A stretch of 64,000 bases of DNA from an uncultured Sphingomonadales bacterium (lineage in GTDB: Bacteria > Pseudomonadota > Alphaproteobacteria > Sphingomonadales > Rhodothalassiaceae): positions 1 through 64,000 of the forward strand of contig CANMND010000001.1 of the NCBI GenBank assembly GCA_947499155.1, read 5' to 3'. Below the pieces are notes generated by a model that saw nothing but the letters and a program-made list of their open reading frames with translations, ran no database searches and had not been told where the DNA came from. Below are positions 1 to 6,297 of the stretch, piece after piece. Every line of letters begins with the position of its first letter. Position 1 is the first letter of the stretch. The position numbers and the translations under genes are program-made.

Positions 1-150
1 GGCACTTTCCCCGCCAAGGTCACACCCGAAGATGCGGCTCACCGTGTCAGTTGGATGCTTCCCCGCAAAAAGCCGTCGTCCCCGCAAATGGCCGGTCCTG
101 CCCTTCCAGGCAAGAGCGCCTATGCGTGGAACCACAGGGCTTTGGTCTGA
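1..150 (+). CDS. C-terminal fragment of an upstream protein (possibly SCO-type)
   Basis: An open frame enters from the left edge and ends at a TGA at 148-150, giving 49 residues. The segment runs through GTFPAKVTPEDAAHRVSWML to a basic, proline-rich tail. The pattern of a short strand followed by a tPEdAA helix is what SCO/thioredoxin-fold proteins have at their C-terminus, and the next genes include two SCO proteins, so this could be the end of another one. The fragment is too short to assign firmly. It lies 44 bases before the next start codon and is probably in the same operon. Confidence 0.55.
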   Translation, partial: GTFPAKVTPEDAAHRVSWMLPRKKPSSPQMAGPALPGKSAYAWNHRALV

Positions 151-194
151 AGACCATCGTCCATAAGGCTTAAACGGAACAATGGAGTGACGTA

Positions 195-2117
195 ATGAGA
201 ACGAAACTCGATAAGCGCATTGCCCGCGCTATAGCACCGGCAGCACTTTTGCTGGCCGGGACGGGCATGGCGTTTGCCCAAGGGGTGCCAGTGCAACCCA
301 GGCCGGCAGACGCCACGGCGGAGGTTGTCAATAATGGCACCAAAACCATCTACAAAACGGGAACCGCAGAAGGCTTGACTACATTCGGCCATCCTTTCGC
401 GCCTTCCCACAGCATGGGTATAAACAAGGATAACCCGACAAATCTTCTGCCAACCATTTATGAATTGCAGAACGACATTCTCGGCAATCCTATCCCTAAT
501 ACCCTGCCGTCCACACCTCAAAATCCGTATAATCTTCATGCGGATCCGATCGTCAGTGATCTTTTTGATGATCGCAGCCCGGAAGAGGATCTGGCACGGC
601 TTATCAAGCGTTTGAAGGAAGGGGTTGATCCCATCCATCGATTCTTGTCAAAGCAGAATGTCTTCTATGCAGGGCTCGGTGTTCCCGCTGACCCGCGTCG
701 CGGCGCACGGGATGTGCCCCGCAATGCCAATCCGGGTGACCTCGGTGAAGCCATTCTGAACAAAATCAATGCTGATGATCTTCAATTCGGTATTGATATT
801 TTCGAAGGCAATGCTGTGAACCGTGTCTATAGCGGAATGCCATTGCTTAACTACAAGGGACCTGAGCAGATCAGCGTCGTGGACCCCGTGACAAAAATCG
901 CGAATGTCCATCAGGTCTGGGTACGTAACACCATTATGTCCGACACATTCTTCGTGGACCCAAGTGCGGTTCATGACGATGAGTGGATTGTACGCTATAC
1001 AGTGGACGTGGTGTCACGTGGTCATGAGGACTTTGTGCCATTCGTGGCTCTCGTGACTGATCCTGCCAATAACAACGGAGCCGCAGAACCACTCGTTGCC
1101 ATGGACGCCACCTTCTTCCCGATGGATGAAGGAAAGCGTTACGTCTTCGATCTGCAAATGCCTCCTGCCAAATACTGGACCCTGACCTATCACTGGGGTT
1201 GGCGCTATCATCCGTCACGCATTCAGACGCATGAAAATGCTCTGAAAGTGATTGCCGGCAAGAACATTGTCGAATGGGAATCCGACGTGTTCGGTGTTGC
1301 TCCATCGTCCAGTGAAGCTGCTAAAGAAGCCGCCATCGACATGATCGGTGAACTGGCCCCTGCCAAGCGTATGTGGCGCGGGTTCAAGGCCTTGAAGCAG
1401 TTCTATGGTAATGGCCAGAGCTCTGACCTGACAGCATATCTTCTCGTAAGAGAAATTGACGCTGCATATCAGGATTGGCAGAACCGTATGCGCTTGCCAC
1501 GTGGTGTTGTGGCCGACGCAAACTCTGACTCCACTCTCTTCTATGTGAACAACACGATCTACGGAGAGATGGATGACACTGATGGTGTTGCACAGATCGA
1601 GTTCCATCGGTGGACGACTCGCGGAGAGACAATCAACATTAAGCTTTATAATGGTGATTACTTCCCACATGCCTACATCAACCTGGACTTCGGTGGTCTG
1701 CGCGGTTGGGAGAATATCTTCCATAACACGCTGCCTCTGAATGGTCAGGGCGCATGGTTCACCTTTGGACGTGCAGCATGGTTCCTGAATACGATTGCAC
1801 CAGCAATCATTCCGCCAGCTACGCGTGTAGAAGATGGCCATAGTGCTGAATATCATGCTGCCAATGACGGCGTATCTCTCGAAGAAATGCAGAACTTGCC
1901 AACATTCGAGCAGGCCAAAGTCATCTTTGGAGGCACGAAAGCACAATTGCGCAAGAACTTGTATTTCAACGCCACCAAGACTTCAAACAAAGTCACGTCT
2001 GAAGGCCTTGGCGAGCACGATGTTGAAATCGAGTTCCGCTTTGATCCAGCGCAACGTCTTCGGTTCTACCAGTTCGATCCACTCCATCATGGAGTAGCGA
2101 TCTGGTCGGTACACTGA
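195..2117 (+). CDS. Exported ~71 kDa cysteine-free protein, IoxC-like (putative iodide oxidase subunit)
   Basis: The 640-residue product begins with a clear signal peptide (basic MRTKLDKR, hydrophobic stretch, AFA|QG cleavage near residue 28). No cysteine is visible anywhere in it, so it cannot carry a type 1 copper site and is not itself a canonical multicopper oxidase. His and aromatic residues cluster around 330-347 (HWGWRYHPS...THE) and at the extreme C-terminus (LHHGVAIWSVH). From memory, the iodide oxidase of strain Q-1 has two components, multicopper oxidase IoxA (about 62 kDa) and IoxC (about 71 kDa). Size, export signal and the SCO/cytochrome c/SCO neighbours fit IoxC. The start is supported by GGAG eight bases upstream of the ATG. 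The export and lack of Cys are seen. The Iox link is inference. Confidence 0.6.
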   Translation: MRTKLDKRIARAIAPAALLLAGTGMAFAQGVPVQPRPADATAEVVNNGTKTIYKTGTAEGLTTFGHPFAPSHSMGINKDNPTNLLPTIYELQNDILGNPIPNTLPSTPQNPYNLHADPIVSDLFDDRSPEEDLARLIKRLKEGVDPIHRFLSKQNVFYAGLGVPADPRRGARDVPRNANPGDLGEAILNKINADDLQFGIDIFEGNAVNRVYSGMPLLNYKGPEQISVVDPVTKIANVHQVWVRNTIMSDTFFVDPSAVHDDEWIVRYTVDVVSRGHEDFVPFVALVTDPANNNGAAEPLVAMDATFFPMDEGKRYVFDLQMPPAKYWTLTYHWGWRYHPSRIQTHENALKVIAGKNIVEWESDVFGVAPSSSEAAKEAAIDMIGELAPAKRMWRGFKALKQFYGNGQSSDLTAYLLVREIDAAYQDWQNRMRLPRGVVADANSDSTLFYVNNTIYGEMDDTDGVAQIEFHRWTTRGETINIKLYNGDYFPHAYINLDFGGLRGWENIFHNTLPLNGQGAWFTFGRAAWFLNTIAPAIIPPATRVEDGHSAEYHAANDGVSLEEMQNLPTFEQAKVIFGGTKAQLRKNLYFNATKTSNKVTSEGLGEHDVEIEFRFDPAQRLRFYQFDPLHHGVAIWSVH

Positions 2118-2207
2118 GACCGTTTGCGAAATAGACAGTCATGTCTGTCGGGCCAAAGGCCCGGCAGACACCGCTTTTTGTAAAACACTCGAATAAAGGT
2201 GGTTCCT

Positions 2208-2981
2208 ATGCAAATGTTGTTACAGTCTGTAATGGTCAGGACCTTCTGCCGATCGGCCCTTATGGCTCTTGCCCTTTTGCTGCCTGCTTCGCTCTCTGCA
2301 CAGACAAATGACTCTCATGACGAACATCAGGGTCATGACATGTCGAGGCATATGAACCCCAACAGTACGGCCTCTTCTCACGACAGCCACGCAGGTCACC
2401 ATAATATGACCCACAATGGCAAAAAAGTTGAAATGTTTGACGGGGAGCTGAAGGCCAATACCAATTACAAGCGCACCACATCTGCATATAATGTCCCAAA
2501 TGTGACATTGCGCGACCAAAATGGTGCTGTTGTGGAACTGGTGGACTATCTGGCTGAGCCCGGTCCGGTTGCCATGCAATTCATCTTCACCAGTTGTGCC
2601 ACAGTCTGCCCAGTGCTGTCTGCTGGATTTGCACAATCTGTGACAGAAATGACCACACTTGATGGTGATGTGCGCCTGCTTTCCATATCCATTGACCCCG
2701 AACATGACACACCTGACCGCTTAAATCAGTATGCCAAGCGGTACGGTGCGCCGGACAACTGGACCTTCCTGACCGGGACCCGCAACGATATCCGCACTGT
2801 TATCATGGCGTTCGACGCGCTTTTTGAGAGTGATAACAAGGTTTACCATCGGCCTTATACCTATATGCGCGGTGAGCCTGGCGACGACTGGGTGCGCATT
2901 GATGGCCTGATGAGCAAGGCGTCCTTGCTTGAAGAATACACATACCTGGTCAGGCGCAAGTCAGCGTCCAGTGCACATTGA
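2208..2981 (+). CDS. SCO1/SenC family copper chaperone with His/Met-rich N-terminal region
   Basis: Thioredoxin-fold SCO protein of 257 residues. Signal peptide at about 10-31. Residues 36-69 contain nine His and three Met, a likely flexible copper-binding segment. The SCO copper site is intact: CATVC (C130, C134) and His at about 214 in VYHRPY, with the family DPEHDTP motif near 163-169. SCO proteins deliver copper to, or reduce thiols of, copper enzymes in the periplasm. The ATG at 2208 is chosen because AAAGGTGG lies five bases upstream; an in-frame GTG at 2199 is less likely. It lies 90 bases after the IoxC-like gene and 18 bases before the cytochrome gene, so probably one operon. The metallated target is inferred to be an oxidase encoded upstream of this window. 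Confidence 0.85.
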   Translation: MQMLLQSVMVRTFCRSALMALALLLPASLSAQTNDSHDEHQGHDMSRHMNPNSTASSHDSHAGHHNMTHNGKKVEMFDGELKANTNYKRTTSAYNVPNVTLRDQNGAVVELVDYLAEPGPVAMQFIFTSCATVCPVLSAGFAQSVTEMTTLDGDVRLLSISIDPEHDTPDRLNQYAKRYGAPDNWTFLTGTRNDIRTVIMAFDALFESDNKVYHRPYTYMRGEPGDDWVRIDGLMSKASLLEEYTYLVRRKSASSAH

Positions 2982-2999
2982 TTACCCGGAGTAGCTTCT

Positions 3000-4706
3000 A
3001 TGGCCCGCTTTTTCCTGTTTCTGGGCGTACTGACATTGCTGTCTGCGCCTGTCGTCACTGACAGCACATATGCCGCTGAAAATGATAATGGGGACCCTGA
3101 ACTTGGTGCGCGTCTTTATTTCCAGGGCCTCGACAGTAATGGGGAGCCAATCAAAGGCCTCACCCGCACAGATATTCCCATCGATGGCTCACAATTAACC
3201 TGCATAAGTTGTCACAGACCCAGTGGCATGGGCTCAAGTGAAGGGGGCACTTATGTCCCGCCAATTACCGCAAGCTACCTTTTTCGCGAACGCATATCTG
3301 ATCGCCGGTTACGTAATCAGCGCTTCAAGGAAGTCTACAAAGAACGTCAAGGCGGCGAGTTTTATGACGATGTAAGACGTGGCCGTCTGCGCCCTGCCTA
3401 TGAAACGCCCCACGATATCGCGCAAGCCCTGCGGGACGGTTTGGATACTGCAGGCCGCACCCTCAACCCTGTCATGCCCCGATATGAAATAAGTGACGAA
3501 GATGCAGCCAATTTGACCGCATTTCTCAAAAGCAATTACGCTAATTACGACAGGGGCGTAGAGGAAAACAAGATCCACATGGCCACAATCATCGCAGGTG
3601 ATGTGCCGCAAGAAAATGCCGATGCTGTATCAGACCTTGTTGAGACCTATGCTGACTGGATCAACAAAGCCATCAATGTGAATCTGGCACGGCCTGGCTT
3701 TTCAACCTATTACCGTTCTGAATTTGCGGACTCCTACAGAACATGGGAGACCGCAATTTGGCGATTAACAGGTGACCCCGATACATGGGGTGAGCAACTG
3801 GCCCGCTATTACGAAGAGCAGCCCGCCTTCTTTGTTGTTGGTTCGATTGTAGAGGGTGATTATAGCCCCATCGCCGATTTCTGCGATGAAAAGAAGATGC
3901 CCTGCCTTCTGCCCGTAACCAACCTGCCCCGTCTAACCGATATGGAGAACTCTTTTACCCTGTATTTTTCACGTGGACTGACACTCGAAGCCGAAGCATT
4001 GGCCATATATCTGTCTGAAGCCGATATGACAGACGATATCATTCAGGTTCATACCAGTGACGTGGAAGGTACCAAGTCAGCACAGGCATTTTCCACCCAC
4101 ATGGCAAAATTGACAAAGGAGCCGGTCAATACTTTTTTGGTCAATAAGACAGATGATCTGGACGAAACCTTAGCAAAAGCCCTCTCTGAAAAGCCCAAAA
4201 GCCTGATTTTCTGGACCGGAAAGGAAAGCGAAAAGGCGGTGGCAGCACTTAATAACGCTGATCTGGGTGAGACAATCATTTATATGCCTTCCACCGGCCT
4301 CAAGGACATACAAGCGTCCCTGTCCGATGACAAACAAGGCGCCATCAGGGTCACTTATCCTTATGACGATCCCAAAAACTACCACCCGGAATCCTTTCGC
4401 ATCAGGGCCTGGATCGGGTCACGGAAACTGAACGTCCCGGATTGGAATATCATTCTCCAAACCTTTTACTCCCTGAAGATCTCTGAGTTTGCACTAAGCC
4501 ATCTGTGGGTCGATTATTACGGGGCCTACATGATTGAACTGACAGAGCATGATATTGGGGTTGGCTTCGATCCTGGTCCATATCCACGCCTGCAATTGGG
4601 TCCCGGTCAACGATTTGGCTCCAAGGGCGCGCTTATCGCGCAGCTTGCTGATGACCCCTCCAATCCATCAGGTATTGAATCCATCAGCCGCTGGATCATT
4701 CCATGA
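3000..4706 (+). CDS. Cytochrome c fused to a periplasmic-binding-protein-like domain
   Basis: 568 residues with a signal peptide (about 1-25, cleavage near YAA). A class I cytochrome c domain occupies roughly 30-180, with one haem site CISCH (C68, C71, H72) and a probable axial Met at 159 (NPVMPRY). From about 190 to the end the sequence has the rhythm of type I periplasmic binding proteins, for example AFFVVGSIVEGDY followed by CDEKKMPCLLPVT and repeated alternating strand/helix blocks. The probable role is electron transfer in the periplasm. The binding domain might sense or hold a ligand, or be a docking platform. GGAG sits nine bases before the ATG. The stop overlaps the next gene's start (ATGA), implying translational coupling. 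Cytochrome assignment is firm; the second domain is from pattern only. Confidence 0.8.
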   Translation: MARFFLFLGVLTLLSAPVVTDSTYAAENDNGDPELGARLYFQGLDSNGEPIKGLTRTDIPIDGSQLTCISCHRPSGMGSSEGGTYVPPITASYLFRERISDRRLRNQRFKEVYKERQGGEFYDDVRRGRLRPAYETPHDIAQALRDGLDTAGRTLNPVMPRYEISDEDAANLTAFLKSNYANYDRGVEENKIHMATIIAGDVPQENADAVSDLVETYADWINKAINVNLARPGFSTYYRSEFADSYRTWETAIWRLTGDPDTWGEQLARYYEEQPAFFVVGSIVEGDYSPIADFCDEKKMPCLLPVTNLPRLTDMENSFTLYFSRGLTLEAEALAIYLSEADMTDDIIQVHTSDVEGTKSAQAFSTHMAKLTKEPVNTFLVNKTDDLDETLAKALSEKPKSLIFWTGKESEKAVAALNNADLGETIIYMPSTGLKDIQASLSDDKQGAIRVTYPYDDPKNYHPESFRIRAWIGSRKLNVPDWNIILQTFYSLKISEFALSHLWVDYYGAYMIELTEHDIGVGFDPGPYPRLQLGPGQRFGSKGALIAQLADDPSNPSGIESISRWIIP

Positions 4707-5380
4707 TGTCTGACAAAAAGAAAAAAACACAAACCCTCTGGCTGCTTCTCGGCGGCCCGAGGGTCCTCATGGTCTTTGCCGTTACACTACTGACGGTTAT
4801 CGGCCTTGTATTTATTATTTCTTCAGGAAAGGAACTCAGCTGGGCTGAAAAAGTCGCATCGACAGATGTTGACCTTGATGCTCCGGTTGGTGGTCCCTTC
4901 ACACTTACGGGTACAAACGGAGAAGCTGTTCATGCCAAAGACTTTAAAGGCAAGATGATGCTGATGGTCTTCGGCTATACCTATTGTCCTGATGTCTGCC
5001 CTATGTCGCTTCTGGCTATTTCCAATACGCTTTATGATCTGGAAAAAACACAGCCTGAAGTCGCCAGCCAGATTGCACCTATATTCGTCACGCTCGACCC
5101 TGAACGTGACACGCCTGAAATGCTGACAACCTATCTGAAAAGCTTCCATCCCCGAATTACAGGGCTGACCGGTACCCTGCCGGACATAAAGCGTATGACA
5201 ACTGCCTATGGCGTCAGTTTTGCCAAGACTGAAAACGAAGCATTTTCAGATTATCTCGTCGATCACACAACGAATATCATGCTGATGGATGCGGATGGTC
5301 GCTATCTCACCCACTATTCGCCTCAGACACCTCCCAATCTCATGGGTATGTCCTTGCAAAGATATGCTCGCACGTCCTGA
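4703..5380 (+). CDS. SCO1/SenC family protein, membrane-anchored
   Basis: 225-residue SCO protein with an uncleaved N-terminal membrane segment (about 11-40) followed by a periplasmic thioredoxin-like domain. Copper ligands are present: CPDVC (C95, C99) and H188 in VDHTT. The DPERDTPEM family signature is at 132-140. Unlike the first SCO gene (2208) it has no His/Met-rich insertion, and it resembles the mitochondrial/cytochrome-oxidase type more closely. It overlaps the cytochrome gene by four bases and is the last gene before a strong terminator. Two SCO proteins in one operon suggest separate copper-delivery and thiol-reduction jobs for one exported copper enzyme. Confidence 0.88.
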   Translation: MMSDKKKKTQTLWLLLGGPRVLMVFAVTLLTVIGLVFIISSGKELSWAEKVASTDVDLDAPVGGPFTLTGTNGEAVHAKDFKGKMMLMVFGYTYCPDVCPMSLLAISNTLYDLEKTQPEVASQIAPIFVTLDPERDTPEMLTTYLKSFHPRITGLTGTLPDIKRMTTAYGVSFAKTENEAFSDYLVDHTTNIMLMDADGRYLTHYSPQTPPNLMGMSLQRYARTS

Positions 5381-5420
5381 CTTGATATCAGGACAGCGGG
5401 TTCTACTCTAATATGAGATA

Positions 5421-5453
5421 TATAAAGGCTGTGAACATTTCACGGCCTTTATA
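5421..5453. terminator. Bidirectional rho-independent terminator
   Basis: A 15-bp stem (5421-5435 with 5439-5453, one G-U pair) closes on the 3-base loop CAT. The arms begin TATAAAGGC and end GCCTTTATA, so both strands read T-rich after the GC core. It lies between the plus-strand SCO gene and the convergent purine nucleoside phosphorylase and can serve both. Confidence 0.85.
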
Positions 5454-5457
5454 TTAT

Positions 5458-6297
5458 TTAACCAGCCATTTGCTTTGCATTTAGATCGGCAAAAAAGCGG
5501 TTGAGCAGACGTTCCGTGGTCGCAGTGGCTTTACTGCCTTCGCTGATTGTCTCTTCATGGCTCAAGGCATGCTTTGCAATGCCCGCAGCCAGATTAGTGA
5601 TGACGGAGAGACCCGCAACCCGCATGCCGGCATGTTGCGCCACAAGGCATTCCGGTACCGTTGACATGCCTACTGCATCGGCACCCAATTGCTTGAACAT
5701 GCGCACTTCGGCAGGCGTTTCGAAATTCGGCCCCATGGTTTGTACATAGACACCTTTGTGAAGGCCAATGCCCAGTGACTGGGCTGCCTCTGTCAAACCT
5801 TTACGCAATTCACTGTCATAAGCACTCGACATATCGAAAAACCGATCGCCGAAGCGCTGGTCATTGGGACCGACCAGTGGGTTCTGCCCGGAAAAATTAA
5901 TGTGATCCTCGATCAGCATCAAAGACCCCGGTCCCATATCCTCGTGCATACTGCCCGCGGCATTGGTCAAAATAAGTGTATCCACCCCCAAAAGCCGCAA
6001 GGTCCTGATTGCAATGGCGAGTTTGGATGCGGGATAGCCCTCATAAAGATGCATCCGGCCTTGCATACATATCAAAGGCAGACCTGACGCCTTTCCTATC
6101 AGAAAGCGGCCAGAATGACCGGACACAGTAGACACCGGAAAATCCGGTATGTCGCCATAATCGACAACCGTCTCAATTTCCATAGTCTCACCGAACCGGC
6201 CAAGGCCGCTACCAAGAACCAGAGCCGTTTTCGGAAACGGCCCCTGATGGTTCTGCTTTATAACAGCGACGGCCTTGTCATAATTAAACTTCTGCAT
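5458..6297 (-). CDS. punA: Purine-nucleoside phosphorylase
   Basis: Trimeric-type (class I) purine nucleoside phosphorylase of 279 residues. It splits (deoxy)inosine/guanosine with phosphate to base and (deoxy)ribose-1-phosphate in the cytoplasm. Family motifs are in order: GSGLG, SGHSGRFLIG (phosphate site), GRMHLYEGY, TNAAGS, GPNFETPAE and AVGMSTVPE. The frame is open a further 32 codons upstream, but the ATG at 6297 is preferred: AAGG lies six bases before it and the protein begins MQKFNYDKA as in the family. With the nucleoside transporter (6653) and AMP nucleosidase (7904) it forms a divergent purine-salvage group. Confidence 0.92.
   Translation of the reverse strand: MQKFNYDKAVAVIKQNHQGPFPKTALVLGSGLGRFGETMEIETVVDYGDIPDFPVSTVSGHSGRFLIGKASGLPLICMQGRMHLYEGYPASKLAIAIRTLRLLGVDTLILTNAAGSMHEDMGPGSLMLIEDHINFSGQNPLVGPNDQRFGDRFFDMSSAYDSELRKGLTEAAQSLGIGLHKGVYVQTMGPNFETPAEVRMFKQLGADAVGMSTVPECLVAQHAGMRVAGLSVITNLAAGIAKHALSHEETISEGSKATATTERLLNRFFADLNAKQMAG

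Follow-up and report, generated by a model that had tools for sequence, protein, structure and literature searches.

According to passages of the review PMC9415286, the iodide oxidase (IOX) of strain Q-1 (Iodidimonas nitroreducens) is an extracellular enzyme that contains copper and zinc and oxidises iodide to I2 with O2; its gene cluster specifies IoxA (62 kDa) and IoxC (71 kDa), both present in the purified enzyme, together with the SCO1/SenC homologues IoxB, IoxD and IoxF, and carries gsp genes in its flank. The Q-1 genome paper gives one ioxA, and passages of PMC10556733 record the oxidation of iodide in culture by all three named Iodidimonas species. The window analysed here (64 kb; bases 1-64000 of the 661-kb contig C1, in an assembly of 2.81 Mb and 25 contigs) opens with a cluster of this kind: judged by sequence, positions 1-5380 are the 3' part of the published iox cluster, in the order ioxB(tail)-C-D-E-F, and the source genome is a third Iodidimonas species, beside I. 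muriae and Q-1. The system is a known one, and the identification of the cluster is secure; the locus itself very probably has a duplicated A-B-C core, divergent gsp genes being followed by ioxA1-ioxB-ioxC2-ioxA2-ioxB-ioxC1-ioxD-ioxE-ioxF.

The iox cluster at the start of the window

The cluster comprises the following features.

1-150, + strand: 3' end of ioxB, SCO-like, last 49 codons and stop (its translation shares 85% identity with residues 172-219 of I. muriae IoxB)
168-244, + strand: 77-bp identity with the start of contig C12 of the same assembly, extending from within the ioxB-ioxC spacer over the initial 50 bases of ioxC
195-2117, + strand: ioxC1, 640 aa, 71.5 kDa, without cysteine, the diverged copy of the genome's two (by homology and tree)
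2143-2169, + strand: hairpin 3' of ioxC
2199-2981, + strand: ioxD, SCO1/SenC copper chaperone (Pfam PF02630, E 2.7e-18; motif CATVC at nt 2595-2609)
3000-4706, + strand: ioxE, monohaem cytochrome c with a type I periplasmic-binding domain (CISCH at nt 3201-3215)
4703-5380, + strand: ioxF, SCO1/SenC copper chaperone (Pfam PF02630, E 1.2e-46; motif CPDVC at nt 4985-4999)
~5420-5460, + strand: stable hairpin and T-rich run, a terminator-like end of the cluster

The original prediction had described an exported, cysteine-free 71-kDa protein, two SCO copper chaperones and a cytochrome c fusion, and had read them as IoxC-D-E-F. Its four open reading frames (ORFs; ioxC, D, E and F) were all found again in place on the + strand, and the description stands: the first protein has 71.5 kDa, no cysteine and a signal-like N-terminus (judged by eye), each chaperone combines a Pfam SCO1/SenC match with CxxxC, and in the fusion CISCH (residues 68-72) precedes the periplasmic-binding domain. 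The assignment is borne out by an in-order match to Q-1 (BAYV01000013.1) and I. muriae JCM 17843 (NZ_BMOV01000001.1); the sizes and the SCO neighbours that it had named for Q-1 agree with the passages of PMC9415286. The proposed homology comparison of IoxC and IoxE with iodide oxidisers recovered the same genes in the Iodidimonas clusters (IoxC 59-61% identical over its full length, IoxE 52-54%, against I. muriae and Q-1), and the window IoxC is 38% identical to that of Roseovarius sp. A-2; since within the genus the IoxC homologues are full length (E <= 1e-250) and gene order is kept as well, chance matching is no issue.

The linked genes had been said to end in one terminator; a hairpin with a T-rich run does close the cluster, but a second strong hairpin stands inside the operon (2143-2169), and a similar one follows ioxC in C12, I. 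muriae and Q-1. A common repeat was considered as its identity and rejected, the pattern occurring once in the 64-kb window. This hairpin is possibly an attenuator or 3' stabiliser dividing A-B-C from D-E-F, and would let A-B-C outproduce D-E-F, enzyme subunits coming before maturation factors. Beyond the terminator-like hairpin lies, on the strand opposite to the iox genes, a phosphorylase-superfamily gene which, going by its sequence, we take to be purine nucleoside phosphorylase.

Window base 1 is also base 1 of contig C1, and ioxB is cut there; ioxA is missing from the window because the window starts at the contig edge. In the same-strand order ioxA-B-C-D-E-F, B(tail)-C-D-E-F is contiguous in the window, and A is placed via contig-end overlaps that are not read through. 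A multicopper oxidase had been expected just to the left, and the lack of one upstream had been named as telling against the prediction: two ioxA 5' parts are present in the same genome, at the end of contig C2 and on C12, but the immediate left neighbour of ioxC is ioxB. The ioxB tail at 1-150, the contig start at base 1 and the duplication of A-B-C had been overlooked.

A probable duplication of the A-B-C core

When the source genome was searched with the window IoxC, a second IoxC (ioxC2), 63% identical, was found on the 3391-bp contig C12, where ioxA2 lies downstream of it. A search with I. muriae IoxA yielded two ioxA 5' parts, one of 286 aa at the extreme end of C2 and one of 214 aa at that of C12, the former (ioxA1) adjoining a divergent T2SSE (gspE-like) gene (Pfam E 3.7e-146; 70% identity to the I. 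muriae counterpart); both parts carry HLHN.H and the longer also WYHDH, motifs L3 and L4 falling on the missing 3' part. Pfam also detects multicopper oxidases on C3, C4 and C7; these were rejected as the missing IoxA, the I. muriae query having matched C2 and C12 and otherwise C7 weakly (E 1.5e-4, 30%).

Each end of C12 overlaps another contig by exactly 77 bp, one end C1 (at window 168-244) and the other C2; past the shared bases, C1 continues for 167 bases into ioxB and C2 for 218 bases into ioxA. These overlaps are probably the residue of a de Bruijn assembly with k = 77, at points where two paths merge, and the simplest linear order using C2, C12 and C1 is A1-B-C2-A2-B-C1-D-E-F, and has one extra unit or more. 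C12 does not look like an allele of a single locus: such an allele would run from ioxC2 to ioxD and not to ioxA. That C12 is contamination or stems from a mixed strain, the species having one iox cluster, is highly improbable: its length of just 3391 bp would suit this explanation, but the exact 77-bp overlaps of its ends with C1 and C2 are what one assembly graph would give, it has an ioxA following its ioxC, unlike any single-copy allele, IoxC2 groups inside Iodidimonas in the tree, and contamination is given as 0.09. Since C12 is flanked on both sides by the shared A-B segment, it could also close on itself, and the second copy (C12 and the missing A-B part) might then be a separate circle or plasmid, or part of a longer array of more than two units; a ~5-kb circle with these genes alone would be odd, a tandem is simpler, and in Ferruginivarius a second A-B-C unit lies a few kb downstream on the same contig, so that such an arrangement is unlikely.

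In the proposed tandem, the two IoxA parts are identical at 204/214 residues and 602/642 bases. The identical 77 bases reach from the ioxB-ioxC spacer to ioxC codon 17; on their left side C12 ends, so that the comparison does not extend to ioxB; beyond the first 40 codons, the third codon positions of ioxC1 and ioxC2 are 20-54% identical in 40-codon blocks. The ioxE gene is single-copy in the source genome.

Several points weigh against the tandem. About 1.5 kb (the ioxA 3' and ioxB 5' parts, estimated from I. muriae) are absent from the assembly, which holds no complete ioxA, and the contig junctions are deduced from the ends, not read through. In the IoxC tree (44 rows, without locus L070) the branch of the window IoxC lies outside the three others from Iodidimonas (support 99/97 and 100/98), and placing the genome's two IoxC as sisters is worse by 15.9 log units (p-AU 0.023). 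Moreover, no second full-length IoxC turned up in the 37 other genomes that were searched whole, these being the genomes of the 39 of 42 loci submitted (without L061, L062 and L070) minus L030 and L037. Since the window IoxC lies outside the other Iodidimonas IoxC, the duplication may predate the species, with loss in two others; going by the sequences, it may thus be an older duplication and not a recent event, the alternative being a fast evolution of IoxC1. Separately, two Acidobacteriota genomes (G771:C215 and G772:C138) showed a distant second IoxC-like match, in ORFs of ~900 aa on contigs other than that of the iox block.

A parallel is offered by Ferruginivarius sediminum (L030), which has two A-B-C units on one contig (7316-11740 and 15751-20216), the second downstream of D-E. 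Between its units, IoxA is 90%, IoxB 100% and IoxC 65.5% identical; the ioxB copies share 519 identical bases in one run that ends ~25 bases before ioxC, and the two IoxC are sisters in the tree (100/98). Because these copies are sisters and the window copy lies outside, the plain reading of the sequences is that two independent duplications took place. The simplest explanation of the identity pattern would be gene conversion of A-B, with C released from it; conversion is favoured because constraint alone would not leave 519 identical bases.

If the locus is arranged as proposed, duplication would yield two enzyme forms, with a near-identical oxidase and differing IoxC partners.

Properties of the Iox subunits

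IoxA of I. muriae matches the Cu-oxidase domains of Pfam and the PhsA/CueO models of NCBIfam, scoring far under the cut-offs of the latter (154 of 950 bits and 127 of 525), and thereby differs from the CueO/PhsA multicopper oxidases; all four copper motifs are present in I. muriae and Q-1, and the C-terminal site HCHN(V/N)VHED(H/N)xM is found in 40/41 rows, the exception being a 5' fragment from a split ORF. IoxA would be the subunit that carries the copper sites.

IoxC is harder to place. The window protein has no Pfam match to E 0.1 and no NCBIfam match to E 0.01; an IoxC profile gave no match to E 1 among PDB sequences, a plasmid collection contained no match, and a contig scan of genomes with the window IoxC as sole query returned no relatives. 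With the profile, its own genome alone matched among 385 genomes sampled from the class, and its own and 2 others among 398 sampled from the phylum. Cysteine is absent from the IoxC of the window, the C12 copy, I. muriae and Q-1 (0 to 5 in the other homologues), and His115, 339, 631 and 632 are invariant in 34/34 rows of the alignment A3, which comprises the window and 33/42 loci (left out were eight similar Roseovarius/Rhodobacteraceae loci and the partial L070). In the AlphaFold2 model (mean predicted local distance difference test, pLDDT, 75.6; predicted template modelling score, pTM, 0.81) two beta regions are seen, at ~113-351 and 444-640, and the model suggests a partner subunit of two beta domains that is perhaps derived from cupredoxins: in the structural comparison VIA, cupredoxin-type rows include CuA (to Z 7.4), rusticyanin (to 7.0) and nitrite reductase (to 6.4), Z values that may reflect a common arrangement, and with Foldseek the three rows with E <0.001 are all multicopper oxidases. 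A cupredoxin ancestry is at the same time countered by the top VIA row, which is beta-arrestin (Z 7.8) and not a copper protein, none reaching 8, and by the weakness of the Foldseek rows (probability 0.30-0.44, TM ~0.1). Since it has no cysteine, IoxC has no type 1 or CuA copper site; its four invariant histidines may bind a metal, perhaps zinc, in a possible His-only zinc or type 2 copper site.

The three SCO-like proteins are not equivalent. IoxD and IoxF share with the SCO1/SenC chaperones both the family match and CxxxC, whereas IoxB has a weak family match (I. muriae, Pfam E 1.5e-5) and no CxxxC; the motif occurs in 0/40 IoxB rows versus 36/37 rows scored as IoxD and 3/3 IoxF. The window IoxB is cut before the CxxxC site, and the motif result for IoxB rests on its homologues; the ORF of L063 that was scored as IoxD sits between A and C, is taken as IoxB and is also without CxxxC. 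On these alignments, the listing of IoxB among copper-binding SCO1/SenC homologues in passages of PMC9415286 appears to need a caveat. IoxD and IoxF, with CxxxC intact, would load copper; for IoxB, whose examined rows all lack CxxxC, a role in holding or assembling IoxA/IoxC is more likely than copper carriage. With respect to export, the IoxB of Nitrosomonas (L054) and Thiogranum (L060) has a twin-arginine-like signal; in Iodidimonas and Roseovarius (e.g. L029 and L040, with starts as picked) the hydrophobic stretch is short or missing, as if the protein were co-exported or cytoplasmic.

IoxE carries CxxCH in 35/36 rows (the odd one is a fragment of a split ORF), and in the alignment A4 (the window and 25/36 IoxE rows) the invariant Met159 is the likely axial ligand; its model (pLDDT 79.4) has a solute-binding protein as best Foldseek match (E 5e-14). 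This fusion of a haem c domain with a binding protein would most likely serve electron supply or ligand sensing during assembly.

Distribution of the block and comparison with described clusters

An IoxA-type gene lies upstream of IoxC in 39/42 other loci, the remaining 3 being cut by contig ends; among the 39, the gene is truncated at the contig start in L038, L039 and L068, is present only as a 134-aa piece in L052 and is split over two ORFs in L059 (for homologues, a script chose the start codons by length). D and E follow IoxC in 35/42 loci, the ioxE of L040 being split; L058 adds a D near its contig end, and IoxF was scored in the Iodidimonas clusters and L031 only. In a Thiohalobacter/Thiogranum-like group (L060, L061, L062, L063, L069 and L070), relatives of IoxC, with IoxA/IoxB where the contig allows, have no D/E seen, also in the 4 of 6 loci whose right flank exceeds 2.4 kb; in the two checked by Pfam, L060 and L062, the downstream neighbourhood includes a CusB/HlyD-type gene that encodes a heavy-metal-binding domain, followed in L060 by an AcrB-type pump. 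Such systems are possibly copper or metal oxidases, not iodide oxidases.

This clade of A-B-C without D/E, its metal-efflux-type neighbours, the relatives in Methylobacter, Acidobacteriota, Nitrospirota and others, and the action of Q-1 IOX on 2,2'-azinobis(3-ethylbenzothiazoline-6-sulfonate) (ABTS), syringaldazine, hydroquinone and others (passages of PMC9415286; PMC5928188) would all suit the same genes having a main physiological substrate other than iodide, as laccase-like phenol, metal or copper-detoxifying oxidases. For the window cluster this is improbable: it matches that of Q-1 gene for gene, and the three named Iodidimonas species all oxidised iodide in culture (passages of PMC10556733).

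Nitrosomonas sp. Nm51 (L054, NZ_FOGH01000034.1, 7002-14287) has a contiguous ioxA-B-C-D-E, with the four IoxA copper motifs, CxxxC in IoxD, CxxCH in IoxE and, in IoxC, NPYNLH and a double His near the C-terminus; its IoxA and that of Q-1 share 59% identity, and its IoxC groups with neither biochemically studied clade in the tree. IoxC homologues are patchy in the genus (10/85 genomes), with 3 of full length (L054, L055 and L058), 5 in two or three pieces and 2 weak. In passages of PMC12335899, a 2025 paper, Nm51 is said to make iodate from iodide, citing Hughes et al., Nitrosococcus oceani being the other iodate-forming strain, and the presence of the whole operon in such species is left open; passages of the 2025 review PMC12535851 ascribe the activity of Nm51 to its ammonia-oxidising enzymes, to which the ioxA-B-C-D-E operon is a candidate rival as source of the iodide-oxidising activity.

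As to why two IoxC copies should exist, we tentatively propose, at somewhat less than even odds, that IoxC is an exchangeable subunit for specificity or targeting: after duplication of A-B-C, gene conversion would keep the oxidase and IoxB alike while IoxC diverges, which would have happened at least twice (Iodidimonas and Ferruginivarius) and would give a cell two iodide oxidases differing in substrate range, anchoring or stability; in the same proposal, the A-E operon, not the ammonia-oxidising enzymes, would explain the iodide oxidation of Nm51. Testable handles are provided by an IoxB without the SCO copper ligands, the four invariant histidines of IoxC, IoxC as the part that diverges upon duplication, and the Nm51 block.

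No iox duplication is mentioned in the main text of the review PMC9415286 (its cluster drawing, Figure 4, aside) or in passages of PMC10556733. As far as the passages of this literature go, four points appear to be new: the duplicated A-B-C with a diverged IoxC, the same pattern in a second genus, an IoxB without copper ligands and the full block in Nm51.

Compared with the described and related clusters, Ferruginivarius sediminum WD2A32 resembles the source genome in its two A-B-C units with similar A and B and diverged C; it differs in that the duplication is its own, the second unit lies downstream of D-E and no ioxF was scored in the 21.7-kb locus. Roseovarius sp. A-2 has ioxA-B-C-D-E in one contiguous block, its IoxA showing all four copper motifs, but no ioxF was scored in the locus, its IoxC is the one at 38% identity to that of the window, and its genome has one IoxC. 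Q-1 and I. muriae, whose IoxC are 79% identical to each other, have an intact ioxA-B-C-D-E-F, and differ from the source genome in that A-B-C appears to be doubled in the latter; the window cluster has the same B-C-D-E-F order, sizes and motifs. In I. muriae, divergent T2SSE and T2SSF genes lie beside ioxA (Pfam), Q-1 is alike by sequence, and the gspE-like gene of the source genome is placed likewise; at the other end, the convergent phosphorylase-superfamily gene directly follows the cluster in the window and in Q-1, whereas four genes intervene in I. muriae.

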